Origin: an uncultured Clostridia bacterium
GTDB taxonomy: Bacteria; Bacillota; Clostridia; Christensenellales; Aristaeellaceae
Reading direction: 5' to 3'
Assembly: GCA_945928315.1 (NCBI GenBank)
Contig: CAMENN010000013.1
Coordinates: forward strand, 1 to 38,764
DNA: 38,764 nucleotides
This document shows, in pieces, positions 1-20,803 of this stretch (within the stretch, counting starts at the first letter, position 1; every line of letters begins with the position of its first letter). A program made the translations under genes and the position numbers. The notes beneath the pieces were generated by a model. It was not told the DNA's origin, did no database searches, and was given only the letters and a program-made list of their open reading frames with translations.

Positions 1-777
1 GTGGACATCCTGATCATGAGCGACATGGGCGTGCGCACCAGCGACAAGGTCATCGAGGAGCTCAAGCGCCGCGTCGAGGCGGAGAGGATCACCGATGCCC
101 GAAAGGCGCGCGAGATCCTCAAGCAAATCCTCAAGGAGACCATGACCATGCCGCGCAAGCCGCTCAAATGGCCGATGATCATGATGGTGGTCGGCGTCAA
201 CGGCGTGGGCAAGACGACGACCATCGGCAAGCTGGCGATGCGCTTCAAGGATGCGCGCCACAGCGTCGTGCTCGCGGCGGCGGACACATTCCGCGCGGCG
301 GCAGCCGATCAGCTGGCGATCTGGGCGGACCGCGCGCAGGTGCCGCTCGTGCGCCATGCAGAGGGCGCGGACCCGGCGGCGGTCGTCTTTGACGGCATCC
401 AGAAGGCGAAGTCCACCGAGGCCGATCTGCTGATCGTCGATACCGCGGGCCGCCTGCACAACAAGAAGAACCTGATGGAGGAGCTGCGCAAGATCAGCCG
501 CATCATCGAGCGCGAGTACGCCGAGGCGGAGGTGCGCACGCTGCTGGTCATCGACGCGACGACCGGCCAGAATGGCCTGCAGCAGGCCCGCGAGTTCTCC
601 GAGGTGGCGGGCGTCTCCGGCATCGTGCTCACCAAGCTCGACGGCACGGCCAAGGGCGGCATTGCTGTGGCGATCATGGACGAGCTCAAGCTGCCGGTGC
701 TCTACATCGGCGTGGGCGAGGGCATCGAGGACCTGCAGGCGTTTGACGCCGGCGCCTTTGTCGATGCCATCTTCTAA
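1..777 (+). CDS. ftsY: Signal recognition particle receptor FtsY (5'-truncated by window)
   Basis: FtsY is the SRP receptor GTPase that docks ribosome–SRP complexes at the inner membrane for co-translational insertion. The visible 258 residues hold the end of the N domain and the whole NG GTPase: G1 GVNGVGKT at residues 65–72, DTAGR at 147–151 and TKLDG at 211–215, followed by the conserved TAKGG. The frame is already open at base 1 and the first residues match the middle of the N domain, so the GTG at base 1 is not taken as the true start and the gene begins upstream. It ends at TAA. The next gene follows after 33 bases with a Shine-Dalgarno in the gap, so the two may share a transcript. The FtsY call over Ffh rests on the N domain and on the absence of a C-terminal Met-rich M domain. 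Confidence 0.95.
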   Translation: MDILIMSDMGVRTSDKVIEELKRRVEAERITDARKAREILKQILKETMTMPRKPLKWPMIMMVVGVNGVGKTTTIGKLAMRFKDARHSVVLAAADTFRAAAADQLAIWADRAQVPLVRHAEGADPAAVVFDGIQKAKSTEADLLIVDTAGRLHNKKNLMEELRKISRIIEREYAEAEVRTLLVIDATTGQNGLQQAREFSEVAGVSGIVLTKLDGTAKGGIAVAIMDELKLPVLYIGVGEGIEDLQAFDAGAFVDAIF

Positions 778-810
778 GCCGCGCAGCACGACCCACGGGA
801 GGTTTATGCC

Positions 811-1353
811 GTGAGAATCCTCAAACGGTTTCTGAACTTTATCGCGTCGCGGATGTTCTTCCTGACGGTGATCTCCGCGTTGCTGATCATGTCGTTTTAT
901 CTGGCGATGAACACTGCCAACATCTGGGTGCTCATCGACGACGGCCTCGATGCGCGCGCAGGCGTGGTGCTCATGGGCAAAGACGCGGGCGAGCTGGAGA
1001 AGTACTTCCGTGCGGAGTTTCTCGCTCAGGACCCCGTCCTGCAGGTGGCTCAGAGCGACACGTCACCCTACAAGGACTACGAAATTCGCGGCTATGACCA
1101 CCGGGTGAAGATGGTCAGCGTGTGGTCCTGGCCGTGGGAGAGCGTCGCCCGGGCGGAGGTCATCGAGAGCATCCCGGCCATCGACGGCACGATCCGCGCG
1201 TCCAGGCGCGAGGCTGCGCTGGCAGCCGGGGGCGAGGAGCGCCTTTCTCCGCCCAAATGGACGACCTGCCGCTATCGCGTGACGATGGTGCGCACGGCGG
1301 GCCGCTGGAAGATCTCCAATTTACAGCTGCTGGACCAGATCGAGGACGAATGA
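811..1353 (+). CDS. Small single-pass membrane protein, unknown function
   Basis: I do not recognise a named family. The 180-residue product has a short basic N-terminus, one hydrophobic segment at about residues 13–33, and a soluble domain rich in charged residues that would lie outside the membrane. Its end (segments such as RVTMVRTAGRWKISNLQ) resembles the beta-rich tail of small NTF2-like or lipoprotein-type extracellular domains, but this is only an impression. The start is GTG, with GGGAGG about 8 bases upstream; an ATG five bases earlier is out of frame and stops at once. The stop overlaps the start of the dus gene (ATGA), which points to translational coupling and a common operon. Confidence 0.7.
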   Translation: MRILKRFLNFIASRMFFLTVISALLIMSFYLAMNTANIWVLIDDGLDARAGVVLMGKDAGELEKYFRAEFLAQDPVLQVAQSDTSPYKDYEIRGYDHRVKMVSVWSWPWESVARAEVIESIPAIDGTIRASRREAALAAGGEERLSPPKWTTCRYRVTMVRTAGRWKISNLQLLDQIEDE

Positions 1354-2330
1354 GTCAGTTTGATTTTCTTTCAAAGGGCGCCATGCTCGCGCCGATGGCC
1401 GGCGTGACGGACATGCCCTTCCGGGTGATCTGCCATGAGATGGGCTGCCCCATGGCGACCAGCGAGATGCTCAGCGCCAAGGGGTATCTGCTCTCGCCCA
1501 GGGGGAACCGCGCGACGGCACAGCTGCTCGCCGTTTCGCCCGGGGAGGAGGGCGCCGTTGCGCTTCAGATCTTCGGGCATGAGCCGGAGATCATGGCGCG
1601 CGCAGCGGAGGAGCTGACGCGGGACGGTCGCTATGCGATGCTCGACATCAACATGGGATGCCCTGTGCCCAAGATCGTCGGAAACGGCGAGGGCAGCGCG
1701 CTGATGCGCGATCCCGTGCAGGCAGCGCGGATCATTGCCGCCGTGGCGAAGGCGTCGCATGTGCCGGTGACGGTCAAGATGCGCCTCGGGTTCGAGGCAG
1801 GCAGCGAGGCCTATCTGCTCCTGGGACAGCTTGCGCAGGAGAGCGGTGCGTCGATGATCACGCTGCACGCGCGCACGCGCAGCCAGTTTTACGAGGGACA
1901 CGCGGACTGGAATGCCATCCGGCGGCTCCGCGAGCGCGTGGAAATCCCCGTCGTGGGCAACGGCGACGTGACCAGCGCTCAGGACGCCCTGCGCATGCTC
2001 GAGGAAACAGGCTGTGCGGGCGTGGCTGTCGGGCGGGCGGCGCAGGGCAATCCGTGGATCTTTGCGCAGATCCGCGACGCGTTTGCCGGACGGCCCGTGC
2101 GTGAGCCGGAGCCGGAGGAAAAGCTCACCGTGCTCATGCGGCACGCATGCGCGCTTTCTCAGCTCAAGGGCGAGGACGTCGCCATGCGGGAGATGCGCCG
2201 GCACGTCGTCTGCTATGTGAAGGGGATGCCCGGCGCGGCGCGCGTGCGCACGCGGGTCAATGAGGTCGTCGCGCTGTCCCAGCTCGAGGCACTGATGACA
2301 GATTTCTTCTGCCCGAAGAAAAGAGATTGA
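1350..2330 (+). CDS. dusB: tRNA-dihydrouridine synthase (DusB-type)
   Basis: Flavin enzyme that reduces uridines in the tRNA D-loop to dihydrouridine. The 326-residue product has the FMN TIM-barrel signature APMAGVTDMPFR near residues 14–25, the active-site block NMGCP with Cys104 followed by a G-rich GNGEGSALM, VKMRLGF for FMN/RNA contacts, and HARTRSQFYEGHADW. The length is normal for bacterial Dus proteins. An upstream in-frame extension exists, but ATG 1350 overlaps the TGA of the preceding gene, starts exactly at the conserved N-terminus and is preferred. The stop codon lies inside the -35 box of the downstream tRNA-Leu promoter. DusB is the usual single Dus of Clostridia; exact paralogue assignment is by general similarity only. 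Confidence 0.93.
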   Translation: MSQFDFLSKGAMLAPMAGVTDMPFRVICHEMGCPMATSEMLSAKGYLLSPRGNRATAQLLAVSPGEEGAVALQIFGHEPEIMARAAEELTRDGRYAMLDINMGCPVPKIVGNGEGSALMRDPVQAARIIAAVAKASHVPVTVKMRLGFEAGSEAYLLLGQLAQESGASMITLHARTRSQFYEGHADWNAIRRLRERVEIPVVGNGDVTSAQDALRMLEETGCAGVAVGRAAQGNPWIFAQIRDAFAGRPVREPEPEEKLTVLMRHACALSQLKGEDVAMREMRRHVVCYVKGMPGAARVRTRVNEVVALSQLEALMTDFFCPKKRD

Positions 2331-2355
2331 CAAATTGCGGAAAAGGCGATATAAT
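2327..2355 (+). promoter_or_regulatory. Perfect sigma-A promoter for tRNA-Leu
   Basis: TTGACA at 2327–2332 and TATAAT at 2350–2355 are separated by exactly 17 bases. Both hexamers are perfect consensus. The -35 box contains the TGA stop of the dus gene (2328–2330). Transcription would begin about 2362, roughly 11 bases before the mature tRNA. Confidence 0.9.
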
Positions 2356-2372
2356 TCATATCGTCCTTTTGA

Positions 2373-2459
2373 GCGGGAATGGCGGAATTGGCAGACGCGC
2401 TAGATTCAGGTTCTAGTGAAAGCAATTTCATGCAGGTTCAAGTCCTGTTTCCCGCACCA
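2373..2459 (+). tRNA. tRNA-Leu (anticodon CAG)
   Basis: Class II tRNA of 87 bases with an encoded CCA end. The acceptor stem GCGGGAA (2373–2379) pairs with TTCCCGC (2449–2455), followed by ACCA. The anticodon stem CTAGA/TCTAG (2400–2404 with 2412–2416) encloses the loop TTCAGGT, giving anticodon CAG at 2407–2409, which reads CUG. A long variable arm and the T-arm GGTTCAAGTCC follow. The long variable arm and the anticodon fit leucine. CTG is a major leucine codon in this window. Confidence 0.96.
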
Positions 2460-2461
2460 GG

Positions 2462-2489
2462 CTCCGGTTTGATGACCGGAGTCTTTTTT
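2462..2489 (+). terminator. Rho-independent terminator of tRNA-Leu (first)
   Basis: Inverted repeat CTCCGGT (2462–2468) / ACCGGAG (2475–2481) with a 6-base loop, followed by TC and six T. It starts three bases after the CCA of the tRNA. Confidence 0.85.
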
Positions 2490-2513
2490 GTGCCCTGTTC
2501 GCGGAGCGCGCGC

Positions 2514-2543
2514 CCGGAATCCGACAGATTTCCGGTTTTTTTT
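2514..2543 (+). terminator. Second, tandem terminator after tRNA-Leu
   Basis: CCGGAA (2514–2519) pairs with TTCCGG (2530–2535) across a 10-base loop, and eight T follow, then GTTTT. Two terminators in a row insulate the downstream SBP/kinase genes from strong tRNA transcription. Confidence 0.8.
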
Positions 2544-2600
2544 GTTTTGTTGCGCATGATAGGCATATTTTGCGGGATACGGCCATATAGATGAATAAAC

Positions 2601-2689
2601 CCTGCGGAAGGGCCTTTGTGCCATCCGGCTTTTCCGCAGGCCGGCGGCAGACGCTGGAAGGGGGCAACCGCATGCACACAGGGCCGCCG
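2601..2689 (+). promoter_or_regulatory. Structured 5' leader before the SBP–SBP–kinase genes
   Basis: Two inverted repeats fill the space between the tandem terminators and the first SBP gene. CCTGCGGAA (2601–2609) can pair with TTCCGCAGG (2632–2640), and CGGCGGC (2642–2648) with GCCGCCG (2683–2689). No T-run follows either stem, so they are not ordinary terminators. I do not recognise a known riboswitch class. The region may be an mRNA leader with a regulatory fold. No confident promoter was found for it: hexamer candidates near 2550–2591 are poor. Confidence 0.4.
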
Positions 2690-2728
2690 CGAGAAAAGGA
2701 ATCAACGACGCAGAGGAAGAGGATCAGA

Positions 2729-4561
2729 ATGAAGAGACGATACATGCTGTCGGCCGTGCTGCTCAGTGCTGCGGCTTTGCTCGCGCTGTATCTTGCTGCG
2801 GGGCAGGACAATCTGGAAAAGGCGGACTCCATCTCCGTGTATCTGTGGAGCAACACGCTCTACGGCGCCTATGCGCCCTACATCCAGGCACAGCTGCCGG
2901 ATGTGGACATCGAGTTCGTCGTGGGCAACAACGATCTCGATTTCTACAAATTCATGATGGAAAAGGGCGCGCTGCCGGACATCATCACCTGCCGACGCTT
3001 TTCGCTGCACGATGCGGCGGACCTGTCCGGCCATCTGATGGATCTGTCCACGACGGAGGAGGCCGGAGCGGTCTATGAGTCCTACCTGCAGAGCTTTGTC
3101 AACACGGACGGCTCGGTCAACTGGCTGCCGCTGTGCGGTGAGGTGGATGGGTTTGTGGCGAACTGCGATCTGTTTGAACAGTACGGCGTCGCGCTGCCGA
3201 CGGATTACGAGAGCTTCGTCGCCGCATGCGATGCGTTCGAGCAGGTCGGAATCCGCGGCTTTGCCGGTGACTTTTTCTACGACTACACCTGCATGGAGAT
3301 CCTGCAGGGACTCTCGATCCCGGAGATCAATTCCATGGAGGGACAGATCTGGCGAAGCCTCTACGAGGACCCCTATGAGGAGGAAAACGGGCTGGACAGC
3401 GTGATCTGGCCGGAGGCATTTGAGCGCATGGAGCGGTTCATCCGGGATGCGCGCGTGCAGCCGGAGGACGTGGAGCTGTCCTACTCCACCAACATCCGGA
3501 TGTTCCGGGAGGGCGAGGCCGCGATCATTCGCGCGAGCGGTGCCAATGTCGCTGCGTTCAGGGAGCAGGACGGCATCAACGCGGTCATGCTGCCATACTT
3601 CGGCGAAAACGGCGAGCAATGGCTGCTGACCTACCCGGCCTTTCAGGTTGCGCTCAACCGGGATCTTGAAAATGACCGGACTCGCCGGGATCAGGCGCTG
3701 CGGGTGCTGCGCGTGATGCTCTCCGAGGAGGCGCAGAACGTGCTGGCACGGGGCAGCGATGTCATCTCCTACAGCCAGAACGTCCAGCTTCGCCTCTCTC
3801 CGGAGCTCGACAACCTGACCGATCTGATCCGGCAGAATCACCTGTTCATCCGCCTGGCCTCAAACGACTTCTTCTCCGTGTCCCTCGACGTTGTGCACCG
3901 GATGATTCTGGGCGAGTATGACGCCCGGCAGGCCTATGAGGCGTTTGACGCGCAGCTGCGCCAGAGCACGGCCAGGGACGAGGAGATTGCGGCAGTCTTT
4001 GACCGGACGTATTCCACGGAGTTTCACAGGGAGGGCGGAAATGCAGCAGCCTCCGTGATGGCCCATACCCTGCGCGCGTGCTACGGCAGCGACGTGCTGG
4101 TCGCGCCGGCCACCAGCTTCACCGGAGCGGTGTTCGCAGGGGATTACACGGAAGAGATGATCGGCTGCATGATCATGCCCAACGCGCTGGATGCTTGGCA
4201 GTGCGACATGACCGGTGCGCAGCTGACGGAGTATATCGTCGCCTTTGTCGAGAGGAACGGTGCGGGCTATGTGCCGTTCAACCGCAGCGCACTGCCCATC
4301 GTCAGCGGCGTTTCCCTGGTCATCAGGGAAAGCGGGGATGGCTATGTGCTGGAACGCGTGCTGTACAATGGAAGACCGATCGACAGGGACGCCACCTTCA
4401 GGGTGACTTGTCTGAACCCGTCTGCCTTCATGGGCCGGTTTCTGATCGACCCGGAGCTGAGCTTTGTGAAGGAAAAGCTGCGGGTCAGAAACGAGTTCAC
4501 GGCGTACATCACAGGCGGCGGCAGGCTGCTCGAGCCTGAACGCTATATCACGCTGAGATGA
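2729..4561 (+). CDS. Extracellular solute-binding protein with C-terminal 5'-nucleotidase C domain (SBP-A)
   Basis: A 610-residue exported protein. An N-terminal hydrophobic segment (residues 6–24, without a lipobox Cys) serves as signal or anchor. Residues about 33–415 look like a family-1-type ABC solute-binding protein, with stretches such as GALPDIIT, WLPLCGEVDG and LLTYPAFQVAL. Residues about 435–610 fit the C-terminal substrate-binding domain of 5'-nucleotidases: GN at 437–438, GDYTEEMIGCMIMP, MTGAQLTEYI, IVSGVSLVI, then LYNGRPIDRDATFRVT. The NGGGIR-like loop of active nucleotidases is replaced by PATSFTG, and no metallophosphatase domain is present, so catalysis is unlikely. The start ATG 2729 follows a purine-rich GAGGAAGAGG; in-frame upstream codons would add a non-signal N-terminus. 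The next gene, a paralogue, starts 18 bases downstream. Binding of a nucleotide-like or sugar ligand is inference. Confidence 0.78.
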   Translation: MKRRYMLSAVLLSAAALLALYLAAGQDNLEKADSISVYLWSNTLYGAYAPYIQAQLPDVDIEFVVGNNDLDFYKFMMEKGALPDIITCRRFSLHDAADLSGHLMDLSTTEEAGAVYESYLQSFVNTDGSVNWLPLCGEVDGFVANCDLFEQYGVALPTDYESFVAACDAFEQVGIRGFAGDFFYDYTCMEILQGLSIPEINSMEGQIWRSLYEDPYEEENGLDSVIWPEAFERMERFIRDARVQPEDVELSYSTNIRMFREGEAAIIRASGANVAAFREQDGINAVMLPYFGENGEQWLLTYPAFQVALNRDLENDRTRRDQALRVLRVMLSEEAQNVLARGSDVISYSQNVQLRLSPELDNLTDLIRQNHLFIRLASNDFFSVSLDVVHRMILGEYDARQAYEAFDAQLRQSTARDEEIAAVFDRTYSTEFHREGGNAAASVMAHTLRACYGSDVLVAPATSFTGAVFAGDYTEEMIGCMIMPNALDAWQCDMTGAQLTEYIVAFVERNGAGYVPFNRSALPIVSGVSLVIRESGDGYVLERVLYNGRPIDRDATFRVTCLNPSAFMGRFLIDPELSFVKEKLRVRNEFTAYITGGGRLLEPERYITLR

Positions 4562-4579
4562 CCGGAAGAGGAAAATGCG

Positions 4580-6442
4580 ATGAAAAGAGGATTTGTCTGT
4601 CTGCTCCTGCTGGCCGTCCTGCTCGGACTGACGGGCTGTGCGGACGGTGGACCGGAGGAGCGCGCGGATCGCGTGTCCATCACCATGCATCTGTGGGACA
4701 AGAGTATGTGCAGGGAGCTGACGCTCTGGCTGGAGCAGCAGTTCCCGGAGATCGACTTCACGTTCGTGGTGGGCTACAACACGATGGACTACTACACAGA
4801 CCTGTACGAGCGCGGCGCGCTGCCGGACATCATCACCTGCAGGCGGTTTTCGCTCAATGACGCGTCGCACATGTCCGGCATGCTCATGGATCTGAGCCGG
4901 ACGGAGGTGGCCGGAACCTTCTACGACAGCTATATCGAGAACAACCGCGAGACGAGCGGCGCCATCCGCTGGCTGCCGATGTGCGCGGAGGTGGACGGAT
5001 ACATTGCCAATCTCGACCTCTTTGAGCGATGCGGGATTCCCGTGCCGACCAACTATGCAGAGTTCGCGCAGGCCTGCCGCCGGTTTGAGGAGCTCGGTGT
5101 GTGTGCCTATGTGAACGATTACCGCGAGGACTATTCCTGCATGGAGGCGCTGCAGGGCTGCGCCATCCCCGAGCTGATGACGATCGAGGGCACCATGTGG
5201 CGCACGCAGTATGAGAGTGAGACGCCGGATCAGCAGGTTGGGCTGGACGGAGTGGTCTGGCCCGAGGTGTTCGGGCGGTTCGCCCAGTACATCGGGGACA
5301 CCTGCCTGACGCCCGGGGATGCCGATACGGACCTGGGCATCGTGAAAACGAGCTTTCTGGGGGGCACCGCGGCGATAATGCGCGGAACGGCCAGCGACTG
5401 CGTCGTGCTCCGGGAGATCGAGGGCCTCAACTGCGTCATGCTGCCGTATTTCGGCGAGACCGCTGAGGACAACTGGCTGCTGACGTACCCGACCTTTCAG
5501 GTTGCGGTCAGTCAGGCGGTGCAGGCGGACAGGGACAAGGCCGACGCCGTCCGGCGCGTACTCGAGGCGATGTTCAGCGAGGAGGGGCAACGCAGGGCGG
5601 CCACCAGCAACGCCGTGCTCAGCTACAATAAGAACGTGAACATCGACCTGAGTGAGGCGTTTTCGCAGGTGTCGGACTGCGTGAGCCGCAACCACCTGTA
5701 TATGCGTCTGGCCTCGACTGAGATGTTCTCCGTTTCCCGGGACGTGGTGCAGAAGATGATCCGCGGGGAATATGACGCGCAGGGCGCCTACGACGACTTC
5801 AATGCGCAGCTCACCGCCGTGAGCGAGACGCAGGCGCCGGAGGTGATCACCACCCAGAGGACCGGCTATGCCTACGAGGCGGGTGCGCACGGCAGTCCGG
5901 CGGCCTCCGCCGTGCTGGGCACGATCCGCAGGCAGTCCGGCGACGCGATCGCCATCGGCTATTCGAGCCTGATCACGGCGCCGGTCTTCGAGGGGGATTA
6001 TTCGGCACAGCAGCTGGGCTGGCTGGTGGCCAACCGTGCGCTCATCCGGCGCGGCGAGCTGACCGGGGCGGAGATCAGGCGGCTGATGGCGTGGCTGATC
6101 AATCCGGCGGAGGACGGCTCCAACCCGGTCCGCCACAGCAACCTGCTGCCCGTCACCAGCGGGTTGGCGTACACGGCTGCGGACAACGGGGACGGCACCT
6201 ACAGCCTGCGGGAGCTGACGGTCGGCGGCAAACCGCTTTCGGACGATGCCGTCTATCCGGTGCTGATGCTGGGGGACAACAGCTTCATCGAATCGAACAT
6301 CTACGGCAACTGTCCGATGCCGGCGGACCTCAAGGAGAAGATGACGCTGGAGAGCGACAGGGCGTCCGCGGTGCTGACCGCGGCGCTCGAGGGCGGCGGG
6401 CAGATGGCAGAACCGGAGGCCTACAGAACGTTCGTGCGCTGA
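4580..6442 (+). CDS. Lipoprotein solute-binding protein with C-terminal 5'-nucleotidase C-like domain (SBP-B)
   Basis: A 620-residue paralogue of the preceding gene with the same two-domain plan. The N-terminus is a lipoprotein signal ending LGLTGC, so Cys20 should be lipidated and the protein tethered to the outer face of the membrane. The SBP part (about 33–425) shares long blocks with SBP-A, including RGALPDIITCRRFSL, MEALQG and LLTYP.FQVA. The C-terminal part (about 440–620) keeps the 5'-nucleotidase-C layout (FEGDYSAQQLGWLV, LTGAEIRRLM, VTSGLAY, VGGKPLSDDAVYPV) but is more diverged. It has the same gene order and strand as SBP-A and the kinase, with gaps of 18 and 45 bases, consistent with one transcript. 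No ABC permease or ATPase is adjacent, which favours sensing over uptake. Confidence 0.78.
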   Translation: MKRGFVCLLLLAVLLGLTGCADGGPEERADRVSITMHLWDKSMCRELTLWLEQQFPEIDFTFVVGYNTMDYYTDLYERGALPDIITCRRFSLNDASHMSGMLMDLSRTEVAGTFYDSYIENNRETSGAIRWLPMCAEVDGYIANLDLFERCGIPVPTNYAEFAQACRRFEELGVCAYVNDYREDYSCMEALQGCAIPELMTIEGTMWRTQYESETPDQQVGLDGVVWPEVFGRFAQYIGDTCLTPGDADTDLGIVKTSFLGGTAAIMRGTASDCVVLREIEGLNCVMLPYFGETAEDNWLLTYPTFQVAVSQAVQADRDKADAVRRVLEAMFSEEGQRRAATSNAVLSYNKNVNIDLSEAFSQVSDCVSRNHLYMRLASTEMFSVSRDVVQKMIRGEYDAQGAYDDFNAQLTAVSETQAPEVITTQRTGYAYEAGAHGSPAASAVLGTIRRQSGDAIAIGYSSLITAPVFEGDYSAQQLGWLVANRALIRRGELTGAEIRRLMAWLINPAEDGSNPVRHSNLLPVTSGLAYTAADNGDGTYSLRELTVGGKPLSDDAVYPVLMLGDNSFIESNIYGNCPMPADLKEKMTLESDRASAVLTAALEGGGQMAEPEAYRTFVR

Positions 6443-6487
6443 TGCGCCACGGCGGACACACAAGCAAAAGAAGAGGGAGCGCGGGAC

Positions 6488-9403
6488 ATGATCAGGAGAC
6501 TGTTGGCGGGGCTGATTGCCGCCGCACTGACGGCTGTGCTCGTCGCGGCGGGCGTGTGGTATTACAACTTTGTCACGCAAACCATCTATACGGAGAGCAT
6601 CAACCACCTGACGGAGATCTATCACCAGGCGAACCAGTCGCTGAACAATCTGGTCGGCAGAAACTGGAGCATCATGCACATGTGGACGCCCTATCTCCGG
6701 GATGTCGGCGATGACGCGCAGAAGCGGGCGTTCATCGGCATGCTGCGGGAGGAGACGGGCTTCACGGACTTCTTCTTCATCTCCCGTGAGGGGGACTACC
6801 GGACCGTCGGCGGGGAGACCGGCTATCTGGATTTCAACAGGAAGCTGCCCTCTTTGATGCTGGACGGCGAGGATGTCGTGATCAACTCCGTCGTCCCCGG
6901 GCAGCCTCAGATCATGGTGTTCGCCGTTCCGGCCTCTCCGGGCACCTATGAGGGCTTCGACTATGAGGCTATTGCGATCGGCTTCAGCAATTCCGATCTG
7001 ATGGATACGCTGGAGATTACCGCGTTCGGCGGGGAGTCGAGCACCTTTGTGATCCGCTCGGACGGGCGCGTCGTGGTGGAAAACACAGGCAGCGAGCAGC
7101 GCGTCTTCCACAACTTCATCGCCGCGCTGGAAAACCGCTCGACGCTGGGCGAAGCGGAGCTCGCCGCACTGCAGGAGGACTTCATCGCGGGGCTCTCCGG
7201 CGCACGGGTGGTGCGCATCGGGGACGAGGATTACTATCTGACCTACGAGTCCGCGCACTTTGAGGACTGGACCGTGCTGGGCATCGTGCCCACCCGCGTG
7301 GTCAACGCCAGCATGAACACGCTCCAGTACAGCACGATGCTGATCGTCAGCGGTGTCGCCGCGTCGCTGGTGGCGGTGCTGGTCGCGCTGGTGATCTGGT
7401 GGTACCGGCGGAGCCTGACCGACAAGGATACCGAGATCCTCTACCGCGAGGAGCTGTTCTCCACACTCTCCGCCAACGTGGACGACATCTTCATCATGCT
7501 GGATGCCGACAACCTCGATGTCGATTACATCAGCCCCAACATCGAAAAGCTGGTCGGCATCCCGCAGGAGGAGGCCCGGCGCAGCATCCGGCTGGTGGAT
7601 CAGCTGGTCAAGGACGGGCAGGCCGTGCTGATCATGGACAAGCTGCCCTCCCTGATCGCGGGCGGTCAGGACGAATGGGAGAGCGAATATGTGCATCAGC
7701 GAACGGGCGTCGCGCGCTGGTTCCACGTCACCGCGCTGTGCCGCGAGATTCACGGGAAGAAGAAGTACATCCTGGTGCTCTCGGACCGCACCAGAGAAAG
7801 GAAGATCAATCAGGAGCTGAAGGACGCGGTGGACACGGCCCGCAGCGCCAGCCAGGCCAAGAGCATGTTCCTCTCCAACATGTCCCACGACATCCGCACA
7901 CCGATGAATGCCATCGTGGGCTTCACCACGCTGGCGATCGCCGATGTGGGGAACACGGAGAAGGTAGGCGATTACCTGTCGAAGATCCTCTCCTCGAGCA
8001 ATCATCTGCTCTCCCTGATCAACGACGTGCTGGACATGAGCCGCATCGAGAGCGGTAAATTCCATCTGGAGGAGACGGAGACGAACCTCTCCGAGGTCTT
8101 TCATGAGATCCGCACGATCATCAATGGACAGATTCACGCCAAGCAGCTCGAGCTGCACATGGAAGCGCTCAGCGTGACGGAGGAGGACGTCTGCTGCGAC
8201 AAGACGCGCCTCAACCAGGTGCTGCTCAATCTGCTCTCCAATGCCGTCAAGTTTACGCCGGCAGGCGGACGGGTCAGCGTCACCCTGACGCAGCTGCCGG
8301 GCGCAGAGGAGGGGATGGGCCGCTATGAGATCCGCGTGAAGGACACGGGCATCGGCATGAACCCGGAGTTCGCGCGCAGGATATTTGAGCCGTTTGAGCG
8401 CGAGCGCACATCGACGGTCAGCCGGATTCAGGGCACCGGTCTGGGCATGGCGATCACCAAGAGCATTGTCGATATGATGGGCGGCACGATCAGCGTGAAG
8501 ACCCGGCAGGGCGAGGGAACCGAATTCATCGTCCGCGTATCGCTCCGGCTTCAGCCTGTCCAGCGGGCCTGCGCCGGGCTGGAACCGCTGAAAGGCCTGC
8601 GCGTGCTCGTCATCGGCAGCGACGCACGCGCCTGCGTGAGCATGAACTGGCTGCTCAATCGGGCAGGGATGCGCAGCGCATGGGCCATGTCCGGGGAGGA
8701 GGCCGTTCGGCGGATTGGTCAGGCCGCCGGGCAGGGCGATCCGTTCCGCGTCTGCGTCATCGATTGGCGGGTTCCGGACGAGGATGGCCCCGGCATGGTC
8801 CGCCGGCTACGCAGCTGCGTCGCGGATGCGCCGCTCGTCATCCTCACCGCATATGACGGGGCGGACATCGGACAAGAGGCCTGTGCGGCGGGGGTCGCGG
8901 CATGCTGCGCACAGCCCGTGTTCATGAGCGACCTGTGCAGCGCCCTGCTGGCGGCTGCCGGACAGGCGCAGAAGAAGGAGCATCCGGAATGCCCGCTGCA
9001 TGAAAAGCTGACGGGCTTTCAGGGCAGGCGTCTGCTGCTGGTTGAGGACAACGAGCTGAACCGGGAAATCGCCGTCGAGCTGCTGGGCAGCTTCGGCTTT
9101 GTCGTGGACACCGCGGAGAACGGCGCTCAGGCGGTGGAGCGGATTGTGAGCGCCCGGCCGGGGGATTTCGACCTGGTGCTCATGGATATTCAGATGCCGG
9201 TGATGGACGGCTATGAGGCGACAAGGCGCATCCGCGCGCTGGATGATCCCGTGCTGGCGGGCATCCCCATCCTCGCCATGACGGCCAACGCGTTTGACGA
9301 GGACCGGCGGGAGGCGCTCATGTGCGGCATGAACGGATTCCTCTCCAAGCCCGTCAATGTGGAGGAGATTGCCCGTGCCCTGCAGGGCATGTTCGGCCTG
9401 TGA
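6488..9403 (+). CDS. Hybrid sensor histidine kinase (extracytoplasmic sensor, PAS, HisKA, HATPase, two REC)
   Basis: A 971-residue membrane kinase. Transmembrane segments at about 4–26 and 284–306 flank a 257-residue outside domain of Cache-like length. A PAS-like domain follows (about 318–435), then the dimerisation/phosphoacceptor domain with His467 in [10 protein letters not shown], and an ATPase with the N box ([11 protein letters not shown], 581–591), G1 DTGIGM (619–624) and G2 GTGLGM (649–654). The first receiver (about 703–825) is degenerate: Asp759 is kept but the conserved Lys is Gln809. The second receiver (about 847–970) is canonical, with EDN 853–855, Asp900, Thr932 and Lys954. 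There is no Hpt and no DNA-binding output domain. SD-like GAGGGAGCG lies upstream of the ATG. Its position after two SBP genes suggests ligand-loaded SBPs act on the outside domain, as known for other SBP-coupled hybrid kinases. Confidence 0.93.
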
Positions 9404-16541: not shown

Positions 16542-18989
16542 GTGAAAAGACGAGTGCTTCTGGCTGCTCTGCTCACGCTCGTGCTGACGCTGTCCTGTGC
16601 GCAGGCGCAGGTGAGCATGGAGGCGAGCGCGGGCTACAGGGGAACGGTCCCCGGCGGGCGATGGTTCCCGCTCGAGATCACCATCACCAATGAAGACGAG
16701 GCGTTCGACGGGGTGGTCGCCGTCGAGCTGATCCGCAATTACGAGGTTTACGACCGCTTCGAATGCCCGGTGTCCGTCGGGACGGGCGAGACATCGGTGC
16801 GATTGCCGCTTCGGCTCGCTATGGCGGAGCGGTCGCTGCAGGTGACGCTCAGCGCCGGAGACGGGATTGTCGCCGAGACGACCGCTCCGGTGCGCGAGAT
16901 TGCTGGGTCCTATGCCTATTTTATCGGCGTGCTGGGCGGCAGCGACGAACTGGTGAGCGGCCTGTGCAGCGCGAATGTTCCGGATGTGCTCGGACGGGCG
17001 GATCAGCTTGTCGCCGTTCCTCTGGACGAGGAGATGGACAGGCTGACGCAGCGGGAGCTCGATGCGTTTGCCGCGCTGGTGATCGACGGATACGACGTCG
17101 GAGCGCTGCCTGAGGAGCAGCAGGCGCTGCTGCTTGACTGGCTGAACGGCGGCGGAACGGTCATCCTCGGTCCGGGGAAGGCGGGTGCTTCGTCCACGGG
17201 CTGGTTTGAAGCACAGACTGGCGTTCGGTTCGGGGAAGCTATGGAGGATTCTGGGCTGATGGCTGCGCTCATGCGCTATGCAGACGCGACGTATGAAGCG
17301 GAGGAGGCCGCGGACGGGGCATATGTGCTCGATGCCGGCGAGGACGGCGCGGCGTATGACGATCAGGCGCGGTGCATTCTGGCGCGCTCTGAAGTGGGAG
17401 AAGGCCAGGTGCTCAGCTGCGGATTCAGCCTGACGGACGGGACGGTCCTGACGGAGGCACGCACCAACGCGCTCTGGCAGCGTCTTCTCCTGGCCGCGGA
17501 CGCTGTGCTCTACAGCGAAGGGTTCGACCGCGGCGACAACAACACGTTCTATGTCAACGGAGTCTGTGAGCAGATGCGGGTGAGCGAAGGAGTCAGCATC
17601 CTGCCTGCGGTGGCGGTGCTGGCGGCCTATGTGCTCATCGCGGGAGCGGGGCTGTTCATCCTGCTGCGCAGGATCGACAGGAGCCGGCTCATGTGGATCT
17701 GCCTGCCCGTCTGCGCGGCGTGCGCGATGGGGCTGGTCGTCCTGATCTCGGGCGTGCTCGGTCTGAACGAGCCGACGGCTGCATCGCTGCGGGTGATTCG
17801 CTTCGATGAAGCAGGAAATGCCACCGATCAGGAGGGGGCGCTGGTCTCCTATGCCGACCAGACGCGCGTGCGCATCGAAGCGGAGGGCGCGAAGGAGATC
17901 TTCCGCACGGAATACTTCAGCTATTACGGCAGCAGCTACGCGCAGCAAAACTACACGCTCAGGGATACGTGCACACTCGGTGACAGACCGGCGATCGAGC
18001 TGAGGGCTGCGGCGCCGTGGACGCAGCGCATGCTGACCCTCACAAGGGACGGCGCGAATCTGATGGGCAGCGTTTCGGTCCGGGCATGGATGGAGGCGGA
18101 CGGCCTGCACGCCGTCGTCGAGAACAACACGGACGTGGCGCTTTGCGACGCTGTGCTGATCAGCAGCCTCGGCTATGCGTCGTTGGGCGACCTGGCGGCG
18201 GGTGAGGTGCGCGAGGTGTCGCTCCTGAATCCCGATGAGATCGTGACCATCGACGGGGAACAGGTGATCCGCGACGGCGACCGACTGCAGTATCCGGCGT
18301 CGATCGGCCGCGTGATCTCGGCATGTGCCCGTCCGCAGTCGCAGACGGCGGAGGGCAGCGCGAAGCTCAGCGAGGCCGGGGAGCGCGCGGCCAGTCTCAA
18401 AGAGAGCCTGCTTCGCATCGCCGTCAGCAGCAGTCAGGAATTTGACTGCTTCGTGGTGGCCGGCAGCCCGGAGCTGCCCTGCGCAGCGATCCTCAAGGAT
18501 GGCGAGCGCATCACGCGCTTTGCGCAGGAGAGCGTCGTCAGCGTGGCAGCATCGTTTGAGCCGGTCAGCGCCGGCGGGTATTTCTACTATCCCGAGGGGA
18601 CGTTTGCAGCCCTGAAGGCCGAGAAATCGCAGACGGGCTATGCGCTGGGCAGCCCGTGGGCGAATCGCTATCAGGACGTCGGAAGCGGCCTTCTGGTCGG
18701 GTTTGATCTGTCCGGCGTCGAGGGGCACATCGACAGCATCCTGCTGATGAGCGAATGGTACGGAGACAGCATCAGGCTGGAGATCTACGACTGGACGGCC
18801 GGTCTGTTTGTCGGGCTGAACGGCGTGGAGAGGACGACCATCGGCAGCGATCTGATACCGCACGTCGTGAGCGCGCAGGGAGAGCTGCTGCTGCGCTATA
18901 CGTCGGAGAGCGCCGACGGCGGCATCTACAATCCGACAATCATCGTGGAGGGCTGGAAGGAGGAGAATGGCCATGATCGAGTGCAATAA
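16542..18989 (+). CDS. Large exported/membrane protein of an ABC-2 exporter operon
   Basis: An 815-residue protein with a signal peptide (about 1–22, ending AQA), a 330-residue outside domain, two transmembrane segments (about 353–375 and 383–408) joined by a short basic loop, and a second outside domain of about 400 residues. The first domain contains a GATase/Rossmann-like stretch around residues 130–230 (ALVIDGYDVGALPEEQQALLLDWLNGGG pattern, described in part), as found in proteins that sit with ABC-2 transporters in gliding or envelope systems. I know no exact name. The GTG start has AAAGGAGG 7 bases upstream. The stop overlaps the ATPase gene, so the three genes are translationally coupled. 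Its partner role, perhaps substrate or envelope interaction, is inferred from the operon. Confidence 0.75.
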   Translation: MKRRVLLAALLTLVLTLSCAQAQVSMEASAGYRGTVPGGRWFPLEITITNEDEAFDGVVAVELIRNYEVYDRFECPVSVGTGETSVRLPLRLAMAERSLQVTLSAGDGIVAETTAPVREIAGSYAYFIGVLGGSDELVSGLCSANVPDVLGRADQLVAVPLDEEMDRLTQRELDAFAALVIDGYDVGALPEEQQALLLDWLNGGGTVILGPGKAGASSTGWFEAQTGVRFGEAMEDSGLMAALMRYADATYEAEEAADGAYVLDAGEDGAAYDDQARCILARSEVGEGQVLSCGFSLTDGTVLTEARTNALWQRLLLAADAVLYSEGFDRGDNNTFYVNGVCEQMRVSEGVSILPAVAVLAAYVLIAGAGLFILLRRIDRSRLMWICLPVCAACAMGLVVLISGVLGLNEPTAASLRVIRFDEAGNATDQEGALVSYADQTRVRIEAEGAKEIFRTEYFSYYGSSYAQQNYTLRDTCTLGDRPAIELRAAAPWTQRMLTLTRDGANLMGSVSVRAWMEADGLHAVVENNTDVALCDAVLISSLGYASLGDLAAGEVREVSLLNPDEIVTIDGEQVIRDGDRLQYPASIGRVISACARPQSQTAEGSAKLSEAGERAASLKESLLRIAVSSSQEFDCFVVAGSPELPCAAILKDGERITRFAQESVVSVAASFEPVSAGGYFYYPEGTFAALKAEKSQTGYALGSPWANRYQDVGSGLLVGFDLSGVEGHIDSILLMSEWYGDSIRLEIYDWTAGLFVGLNGVERTTIGSDLIPHVVSAQGELLLRYTSESADGGIYNPTIIVEGWKEENGHDRVQ

Positions 18990-19917
18990 GCTGACCCGGC
19001 GATACGGAAGGATGCTGGCGCTTGACGGCATCGACCTGCACATCGGCGCGGGCGAGCTGCACGCCTTTGTCGGCCCGAACGGCGCAGGCAAGACGACGGC
19101 CATGCGGATTCTGGCGACGCTGATGCGCCCCACGTCCGGCGATGCGCTCGTAGACGGCGTCAGCGTGGTACAGAATCCGCAGAGGGCGCGCCAGCTCGTG
19201 GGCTATATGCCGGATTTCTTCGGCGTGTACGACAACCTGAAGGCGTGGGAGTACCTCGATCTGTATGCGGGCTGCATGGGCATCGGCGCGAAGGACAGGC
19301 GGCGCAGGATTGACGGGCTGCTCGGACTGACCGCACTGACGGACAAGCGCGAGGCCTATGTGGACGGGTTGTCGCGCGGCATGAAGCAGCGCCTGTGCCT
19401 GGCGCGGGCACTGCTCCACGACCCAAAACTGCTGATTCTCGACGAACCGGCCTCGGGCATGGACCCGCGCGCCCGGGCGCAGATGCAGGAGATTCTGTCT
19501 GAGATCGGCTCGATGGGCAAAACGGTGCTCATCTCCTCGCATATCCTGCCGGAGCTGGCAACGCTGTGTACGCACGCGACGATCCTGGACCACGGAAGCG
19601 TGCGATTCAGCGGAAGCGTCAGCGAGCTGGAGGCGCGGATGAACATGCGGGAGGCGCTGACGCTCCGCCTTGCGGGCGAGCCGGACGAAGACATGGCCGG
19701 GCGCGTGGAGGCGTGCGTGCAGGAGCTGCTGGGCATCACGCCCGAACGAACGCAGCCCGACACATGGCGCATTCCCGGAGAGGCGCAGAAGGATGCGCAG
19801 CTGCTGGCCGCGCTGGTGGCGCTGGGCGCGCCTGTCTGCGATTTCCACCGCGAGCATGCGACGCTTGAACGGGTCTTTATGGAGGTGATGCGGGATGAAG
19901 CTCAATCCGATCTTTGA
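18973..19917 (+). CDS. ABC transporter ATP-binding protein (ABC-2 exporter type)
   Basis: A 314-residue cytoplasmic ATPase that powers the permease encoded next. Walker A GPNGAGKT lies at 34–41, the signature LSRGMKQR at 133–140 (the usual LSGGQ replaced by LSRGM, normal for this exporter class), and Walker B LLILDEP at 153–159, followed by the H-loop in ISSHILPE. The C-terminal 90 residues form the accessory domain seen in CcmA/NatA-like ATPases. Two in-frame ATGs exist; 18973 is chosen because GGAGGAG is 7 bases upstream, while 18967 leaves only one base. It overlaps the upstream gene by 17 bases and the downstream one by 23. Confidence 0.93.
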   Translation: MIECNKLTRRYGRMLALDGIDLHIGAGELHAFVGPNGAGKTTAMRILATLMRPTSGDALVDGVSVVQNPQRARQLVGYMPDFFGVYDNLKAWEYLDLYAGCMGIGAKDRRRRIDGLLGLTALTDKREAYVDGLSRGMKQRLCLARALLHDPKLLILDEPASGMDPRARAQMQEILSEIGSMGKTVLISSHILPELATLCTHATILDHGSVRFSGSVSELEARMNMREALTLRLAGEPDEDMAGRVEACVQELLGITPERTQPDTWRIPGEAQKDAQLLAALVALGAPVCDFHREHATLERVFMEVMRDEAQSDL

Positions 19918-20803
19918 ATCGTCCGCGCGCAGGCGCATGCGCATGGGCAAGACGCCGGTGATCCTGACGGCCTATCTGGCGGCGATGCTGGTCTTCGCCG
20001 TGTGCGAGCTGAGCGCGTTCTTCGGACAGGGCGTCGGCGTGGCGAAGATGCGCACCGGCATCGAGGGCTACATCTGGATGACGGCAATTCAGTTCTTCCT
20101 GATCATCCTGGTGGCGCCGGCGCTGAGCGCTGGGAGCATCGCGGGCGAGCGGGAGCGGCAGACGTTCGATCTGCTGCTGGTCACGGGCGTAGGCACACGG
20201 CGCATGGTGCTGGGAAAGCTGACGGAAAACCTGGCGTTTCTTGTGCTGATGATCCTGTGCAGCGCGCCGGTGATGAGCCTCGTGCTGGTGACGGGCGGCG
20301 TGAGCGCAGCGGATGTGCTGGCGACGCTTCTTTACCTGGCGGTCATCGCGCTGGCGGCGCTCAGCGTGGGCATGGTCATGTCGGCGATCTTCCGGCGCAC
20401 GCTTGTCGCGGTCATCGCGTCGTACCTGGCGATCTTCGCCATCGGCGCGGGCACCTGGGCGCTGGCCAAGCATGGACCGATCGCTGCGGCCTACACCTAT
20501 GATGGGCTGAACCATCTGGCCTCGGCCGGGACGCCTGCAGCGATCCGCTCGCTGCCCGTAACCATCCTGCTCAACCCCGCGGTCGGGCTGGTGATGCTGC
20601 TGGCCGGGCAGACGGGCATCCTCCACCGGACGATGCAGACGACGATGCGCCTGTATGACATCTATACGGTGAGCGGGTATGCCGGGTTCACGCCGGTGGC
20701 CTGGGTGATTCTGGGCGCGATGCTCGCCGCGGCGCTGCTGATGACCGCGCTGGCCTGCCTGATCCTGCATCTGCAGACGGGTGCAGCTTCGCGCAGACGA
20801 TAA
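19895..20803 (+). CDS. ABC-2 family transporter permease
   Basis: A 302-residue integral membrane protein with about six hydrophobic helices: around residues 24–43, 64–86, 115–137, 145–167, 170–193 and 270–295. The conserved cytoplasmic stretch AGERERQTFDLLLVTGV near residues 85–103 is the ABC-2 coupling region that contacts the ATPase. The start ATG has GGAGG 9 bases upstream inside the preceding gene. Substrate is not shown by the sequence; ABC-2 permeases export lipids, polysaccharides, peptides or drugs. Together with the 815-residue protein it makes a complete three-gene exporter module ended by the terminator at 20817. Confidence 0.92.
   Translation: MKLNPIFESSARRRMRMGKTPVILTAYLAAMLVFAVCELSAFFGQGVGVAKMRTGIEGYIWMTAIQFFLIILVAPALSAGSIAGERERQTFDLLLVTGVGTRRMVLGKLTENLAFLVLMILCSAPVMSLVLVTGGVSAADVLATLLYLAVIALAALSVGMVMSAIFRRTLVAVIASYLAIFAIGAGTWALAKHGPIAAAYTYDGLNHLASAGTPAAIRSLPVTILLNPAVGLVMLLAGQTGILHRTMQTTMRLYDIYTVSGYAGFTPVAWVILGAMLAAALLMTALACLILHLQTGAASRRR

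Follow-up and report, generated by a model that had tools for sequence, protein, structure and literature searches.

Some bacterial sensor kinases are driven by an extracellular solute-binding protein (SBP), and XylFII-LytS is one clostridial example of such an SBP three-component system. In the CuaD-CuaS-CuaR system, the SBP CuaD binds the sensor kinase CuaS and aids the sensing of cellobiose (PMC10384115). There, CuaD is a plain SBP of 410 amino acids, CuaS is a HAMP class-I kinase, and the YesN/AraC-family regulator CuaR is encoded alongside (PMC10384115). LuxP-LuxQ-LuxU pairs a periplasmic binding protein with a hybrid kinase, and its phosphorelay protein is a separate one (PMC5467912). 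Here, we describe a three-gene unit, SBP1-SBP2-HK, found in a stretch of DNA that comprises bases 1-38764 of contig C13 (38,764 nucleotides, hereafter the window) of a metagenome-assembled genome (MAG) of 2.94 Mb, which has 189 contigs and is 93% complete. The unit encodes two SBPs, each fused to a C-terminal domain of the 5'-nucleotidase type (5_nucleotid_C), and a hybrid sensor histidine kinase (HK). We consider it probable that the three genes form an SBP-assisted sensory phosphorelay, in which the SBPs dock on the dCache-like sensor of the hybrid kinase.

The unit is like CuaD-CuaS-CuaR in that a gene for an SBP lipoprotein lies beside a sensor kinase gene (PMC10384115). CuaD binds the outside domain of CuaS and helps it to sense low levels of the ligand (PMC10384115); in the window unit, a contact of this kind would be indicated only indirectly, by the co-divergence described below. 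In contrast to CuaD-CuaS-CuaR, the family of the window unit has a nucleotidase-type C-terminal domain on the SBPs, often has paired SBPs, and has a hybrid kinase with dCache-like and PAS-like domains. The likeness to LuxP-LuxQ-LuxU lies in a hybrid kinase, with HisKA, HATPase and receiver domains, that has an SBP partner gene. LuxP itself belongs to a different SBP family and is not known to have a C-terminal fusion. Because no cognate regulator gene was found in the window unit or in the nine genes scanned 3' of it, we file the unit as a variant that would work like the SBP three-component systems. The UshA and CpdB nucleotidases share the C-terminal 5_nucleotid_C domain with SBP1 and SBP2, but in the latter an SBP domain replaces the catalytic metallophosphatase domain, and the base-stacking aromatic residues are lost. 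As a whole, the unit appears to work like CuaD-CuaS and LuxP-LuxQ-LuxU, while its domain fusion and paired-SBP input were not found described in the literature searched; searches of the open-access literature returned no paper appearing to describe an SBP fused to 5_nucleotid_C. The unit adds a domain architecture and a recurrent gene arrangement to the short list of binding-protein-driven sensor kinases, and it marks an outside sensing system of metagenome-assembled Clostridia-type genomes, several of which are gut-derived.

SBP1 (2729..4561, plus strand) encodes an exported protein of 610 amino acids, or of 656 if an alternative in-frame ATG at 2591 is the start. SBP2 (4580..6442, plus strand) encodes a lipoprotein of 620 amino acids and HK (6488..9403, plus strand) a kinase of 971 amino acids. 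The three genes stand in one row, with intergenic gaps of 18 bases (SBP1-SBP2) and 45 bases (SBP2-HK). SBP1 and SBP2 are paralogues, with 40% identity over 596 aligned columns (E=9e-154). An earlier reading of these bases made without database searches, the sequence-only reading, had described two paralogous SBP-5_nucleotid_C proteins without a metallophosphatase part, followed at these distances by a hybrid kinase with two receivers, and this is confirmed by the open reading frames (ORFs) and by Pfam. Its wording that the SBPs are membrane-tethered or exported also holds, as SBP2 has the lipobox LTGC and SBP1 has a signal segment without a lipobox cysteine. Window SBP1 is the sole one of 31 aligned family members that lacks a cysteine in the lipoprotein column, so that its signal segment would anchor it, or else the protein would be released.

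SBP1 matches SBP_bac_8 in Pfam with 35.5 bits (cut-off 27). The 5_nucleotid_C-type domain extends over 4037..4411 (plus strand) in SBP1, where it obtained 21.8 bits in a whole-genome search and did not reach the cut-off of 23.6, and over 5903..6268 (plus strand) in SBP2, where it exceeded the cut-off with 28.8 bits in the same search and, with 25.6 bits, in the Pfam match of the protein. Among the 31 aligned family members, Pfam at E<=0.01 found 5_nucleotid_C in 25, SBP_bac_1 in 21 and SBP_bac_8 in 3, where one member may match both SBP families. The only further Pfam family was a single chance-like match in one member, and no match to a metallophosphatase family was found among the 31 members scanned. 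When 26 C domains were compared, profile against profile, with five putative nucleotidases, the probability was 98.2% (E=5.9e-14) over the C-terminal domain of the nucleotidases, and the kinase sensor profile, as a control, gave 0.1%. In those of the five that were inspected, N-terminal motifs like those of metallophosphatases were seen by eye and not by a domain scan. Among solved structures, family-1 SBPs were found with the SBP part of the family profile (3quf, E=4.4e-16), and the nucleotidase 3ivd (E=1.4e-4) with its C part, which found UshA at E=0.5 only. Single proteins lie near the Pfam cut-offs and the family does not, and we take the fusion of an SBP with a nucleotidase C domain to be real at the profile level; the kinship of the C-terminal parts to 5_nucleotid_C, claimed in the sequence-only reading, is borne out in this form. 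Three extracellular cysteines, at amino acids 87, 135 and 187 of SBP2, are kept in 28, 31 and 31 of the 31 members, respectively, and may have a disulphide or binding-site role.

The gene order recurs in related genomes. We compared 38 loci, namely the window, 22 loci from one scan of genome contigs and 15 from wider searches and extra stretches; L065 was left out because it shares its contig with L009, and L080 because it repeats L081 in shorter form. A sensor kinase adjoins the SBP gene or genes in 34 of the 38 loci (the window, 20 of the 22 and 13 of the 15), which speaks against the refuting case set out in the sequence-only reading, that the three genes do not co-occur in related genomes, and in 20 of the 22 first-scan loci the kinase is directly 3' of an SBP gene. 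It is a hybrid kinase wherever the sequence is long enough. The kinases of L029, L077 and L079 end at the contig edge before any receiver, L079 retaining only a kinase start of 96 residues (72 bits). The kinase lies on the opposite side of the SBPs in L066, and L067 has one whole kinase and a second that is apparently split over two frames. In L068 the contig ends 181 bases past the SBP, and L012 (6640-10674) is a decayed unit with broken SBP frames, in which by eye only a short stretch resembling a kinase start is left. The flanking genes otherwise vary between loci. A third SBP/5_nucleotid_C fusion is found in the genome of the window, on contig C12 (L081:1842-6798). It is 22% identical to SBP2 and lies 25 bases 5' of a hybrid kinase of 980 amino acids with two receivers, with a receiver-only gene upstream (1148-1582).

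The named relatives are all MAGs; their labels read Clostridia, Clostridiales, Oscillospiraceae, Lachnospiraceae, Bacillota or simply bacterium, and several come from animal guts. At the family level, full-length matches were found in at least 4 of 150 genomes, and in at least 2 of 6 genomes of the same genus. At the class level, at least 15 of 391 genomes matched at E<=1e-25, ten over most of the length and five over the SBP part only. The distribution of the unit is patchy. A distant clade, L070-L073, looks rare, with at least 1 of 398 genomes at E<=1e-40 in a phylum-wide search.

Other sensor genes are found near some of these units. In L019, a divergent SBP, which has no Pfam match and by eye a faint nucleotidase-like C-terminal stretch, is encoded with its own hybrid kinase (62-4553) and directly precedes an SBP1-SBP2-HK unit, which makes two units in tandem. 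In L071, a separate hybrid kinase with built-in SBP_bac_3 domains (2342-5593) is located just upstream of the SBP fusion, and an upstream kinase ORF of L072 (8411-11659, minus strand) has the same blast match as this kinase.

As SBP_bac_1 and SBP_bac_8 are transporter families, SBP1 and SBP2 could be conventional uptake proteins whose ABC permease is encoded at another locus, with a kinase that merely regulates uptake. The genome does have 98 matches to the permease family BPD_transp_1, but none of these is on contig C13 or on C12, the contig of the third fusion, and the usual neighbour of the SBPs is a kinase and not a permease. A tblastn search of the 38 loci (503,062 bases, E<=1e-8) with 30 of the 98 permeases gave no match in 36 loci; since the queries were 30 of the matches from the own genome, unlike permeases could be missed. 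Permease relatives were found in L014 and L016 only, about 1 kb upstream of SBP1, and L030 has ABC exporter-type genes 3' of the unit. We know of no transport SBP that has such an extra C domain as a feature. Furthermore, the SBPs diverge together with the kinase sensor, as described below, and we regard the uptake explanation as very improbable. The conserved gene order, the 36 of 38 loci without a nearby binding-protein-dependent permease and this co-divergence favour the stand-alone extracellular sensing module that was proposed in the sequence-only reading.

The co-divergence was measured, for each SBP clade, by comparing SBP distances with distances of three parts of the kinase, the outside sensor, the PAS region and the core. 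For the SBP2 clade, 19 loci were chosen; the distant clades were excluded, as were loci in which genes are missing or truncated and two near-copies (L017 and L021). The distances of the SBP domain correlated with those of the sensor at 0.873, of PAS at 0.575 and of the core at 0.662. The partial correlation was 0.780 for the sensor given the core, a value that none of 2000 permutations attained, and 0.276 for the core given the sensor. With 9 loci, the SBP1 clade gave correlations of 0.938, 0.854 and 0.840, respectively, and partial correlations of 0.773 for the sensor given the core (again 0 of 2000 permutations as high) and 0.142 for the core given the sensor. The permutations ignore relatedness, and the counts are not exact probabilities. 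Versions with cruder slices and mixed clades went in the same direction. That the SBP distances track the outside sensor of the kinase above its core supports a sensing partnership.

The partnership could also be of another kind, with SBP parts that are ligand-free, fixed structural subunits of the kinase and a dCache domain that is the real sensor. dCache domains themselves bind ligands, for example amino acids (PMC9602780), and window SBP2 alone matched no SBP model in Pfam at E<=1. On the other hand, the mean distances of both clades show less divergence in the SBP domain than in either the kinase sensor or the C domain, and the blocks TCRRF, WLPxC and DYxCME are near-invariant among the 31 members, which makes a purely structural role quite improbable to us. 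Because the SBP domain is conserved, the sensor would still use the SBP pocket. The bound solute is most likely carbohydrate-like, given the SBP_bac_1/8 relatives.

The C domain raises the question of a second ligand. In UshA the base is stacked between F429 and F498, and in CpdB two tyrosines occupy the stacking positions, where mutating one of them weakens adenosine binding (PMC7922932). We set the pocket columns of the family by alignment to UshA. Four positions were tested: F429, F498, and also R410 and N431, which we take to be further pocket residues of UshA. None of the four is kept in window SBP1 or SBP2; at the F429/F498 positions SBP2 has N/D and SBP1 has N/P. Among the 31 members, the R410 position is T, A or S in all and never Arg, and the F429 position is taken by Asn in 24 members, by Gly in three, by Phe in two and by Tyr and Ala in one each. 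The aromatic residues at this position belong to L018, L022 and L024, which are nearer relatives. N431 is kept in 3 of the 31, and the F498 position is never aromatic.

The distant clade L070-L073 has a different C domain. It matches 5_nucleotid_C with 98-115 bits and keeps the motifs RxxExxxGNL, NGGSxR, CPYxN, TxY and NGD. The SBP fusions of this clade also adjoin hybrid kinases, and the sensors of the three kinases scanned are dCache-like, below the cut-off. The clade appears ancestor-like, may still bind nucleosides, and provides the best candidates for extracellular nucleoside sensing. We read the window lineage as one that gave up the nucleoside pocket, with a few members intermediate. 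This natural series from kept to lost pocket motifs allows tests of what a borrowed enzyme domain does in signalling.

These comparisons bear on the ligands named in the sequence-only reading, which were nucleotide-like or phosphosugar-like. If the C domain still bound nucleosides or nucleotides, the unit could sense extracellular nucleotide-like ligands directly, and this would fit a domain that is a 5_nucleotid_C relative, the aromatic residue of L018, L022 and L024, and the motifs retained beside hybrid kinases in L070-L073. However, all four positions are changed in SBP1 and SBP2, the family pattern at R410, F429 and F498 points the same way, and the base is stacked at two of these positions in UshA, with weakened adenosine binding in a CpdB mutant that lacks one of the stacking tyrosines (PMC7922932). 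For the window unit we therefore regard direct nucleotide sensing as unlikely, and that part of the proposal is not supported for the window proteins; for phosphosugar-like ligands no evidence was found.

The hybrid kinase, on the plus strand, can be described from its N-terminus as follows. There is a dCache_1-like extracellular sensor (6581..7279, amino acids 32-264; the full model is matched with 41.1 bits, under its cut-off of 45) and a PAS-like domain (7526..7738, amino acids 347-417; PAS_3 18.8 bits, cut-off 25.6). These are followed by the HisKA dimerisation/phosphoacceptor domain (7856..8056, amino acids 457-523), HATPase_c (8198..8545, amino acids 571-686), receiver 1 (8588..8947, boundaries approximate) and receiver 2 (9035..9382, amino acids 850-965), the receivers corresponding to two Response_reg matches in Pfam besides those to HisKA and HATPase_c. 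The motif residues of receiver 2 are intact. Receiver 1 of the window is partly degenerate, with GSD in place of the acidic cluster DDD and Gln in place of the lysine. The acidic cluster, the lysine and the phosphoacceptor Asp of receiver 1 are kept in 12 of 13 aligned orthologues, and L009 lacks that Asp. A sequence search of the PDB with the kinase sensor profile gave four matches at E 0.46-0.9, none of them usable.

In our preferred reading of an SBP-assisted phosphorelay, SBP1 and the lipid-anchored SBP2 would bind a small solute outside the membrane and dock, with their nucleotidase-derived C domains, on the dCache-like outside part of the kinase, whose activity would thereby change. The C domain of the window lineage seems to have lost the ability to hold a nucleobase, and it would probably be a docking or clamp module. 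Phosphate would likely pass from the kinase histidine to receiver 2, then to a separate Hpt protein and on to a response regulator. Hpt genes adjoin the unit in 7 of the 38 loci, by Pfam in L009, L020 and L077 and by blast or clustering in L017, L021, L066 and L074. REC-GGDEF-EAL genes are beside the unit in L018 and L077, and a GGDEF-TPR gene in L029. L020 has an HTH-REC gene in this place, as does its near-copy L021 according to blast. In L077 (1-6947, minus strand), Hpt, REC-GGDEF-EAL with an extra GGDEF, SBP2 and a kinase start stand in one row, possibly a complete relay in one cluster. The Hpt and REC-GGDEF-EAL genes of some loci thus point to a phosphorelay. The genome of the window has two Hpt genes, both unlinked to the unit, one of which is 44% identical to the Hpt of L020 (E=3e-28).

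Several observations weigh against this reading. The window unit encodes no response regulator or Hpt, and a scan of nine genes 3' of it likewise found no regulator gene. GGDEF is matched in 8 of 14 control genomes but nowhere in the genome of the window. In L015 (9834-10115), an SBP1-SBP2 pair is followed by a gene that reads as HTH/WYL-like in place of the kinase; the pair could be an orphan, or the junction could stem from a rearrangement or from the assembly. L078 contains an SBP1 end with no kinase within 3 kb downstream, its upstream side being cut off; this SBP1 seems to be apart from a kinase, because SBP2 and a kinase of the same genome are on another contig (L077). The 38 loci include near-copies (L017, L020 and L021) and close pairs (L014/L016 and L019/L023), so that there are fewer independent cases. 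The 5_nucleotid_C match of SBP1 in Pfam, with 18.7 bits, is under the cut-off of 23.6, and the dCache_1 and PAS_3 matches of the kinase are each below theirs. The co-divergence analysis controls for shared ancestry through the kinase core only, and the core correlation could likewise be lowered if the core had been rearranged or evolved slowly. The contrast is also weaker for the C domain of the SBP1 clade, which has a partial correlation of 0.471 with the core. A cyclic di-GMP output, prompted by L018, L077 and L029, was rejected for the genome of the window, a 93% complete assembly, on account of the absent GGDEF match.

The sequence-only reading had also proposed dual input from two SBPs, and this holds in part. 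In the tree, SBP1-type and SBP2-type proteins (11 and 20 labelled rows of 49) are separated by branches of 99/99 support, so that the two form old, separate clades, but quite a few loci contain a single SBP: SBP2-type alone in L009, L011, L018, L022, L024, L029 and L074, and SBP1-type without SBP2 beside the kinase in L067. On the best kinase tree, the one-SBP and two-SBP states (14 and 13 labelled rows of 33) need 5 changes; this tree has a poorly resolved backbone, and only 1 such change is required by branches with good support. The SBP pair appears to be old yet optional. A possible history, which we offer tentatively and would not expect to hold in full, is that the specificity domain of a nucleotidase was severed from its catalytic half, fused to an SBP and then put to use as a sensor coupled to a kinase. 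In this history, the distant clade would be a two-pocket sensor for extracellular nucleosides and one further solute. The window lineage would have lost the nucleoside pocket, the domain would have become a docking part, and the two diverged SBPs would give a heteromeric input to one kinase.

Three other readings considered for this region were rejected. A perfect sigma-70 -35/-10 match at 2327-2355 directly precedes a tRNA-Leu gene (2373-2459) and was therefore assigned to the tRNA and not to the unit. An antisense ORF of 1432 amino acids (3860-8158) was dismissed as an artefact of codon bias, as both the domains and the conservation are found in the plus-strand frames. A viral origin had one pattern match in its favour, yet no relative was found in viral_contigs. 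A terminator-like hairpin (2459-2484) follows the tRNA-Leu upstream of SBP1. Downstream of HK are a patatin-like gene, a VanW gene on the opposite strand and then unrelated genes, and the genes 3' of the unit include a transporter pair of the ABC-2 type, which is not binding-protein-dependent, at 18967-20800.

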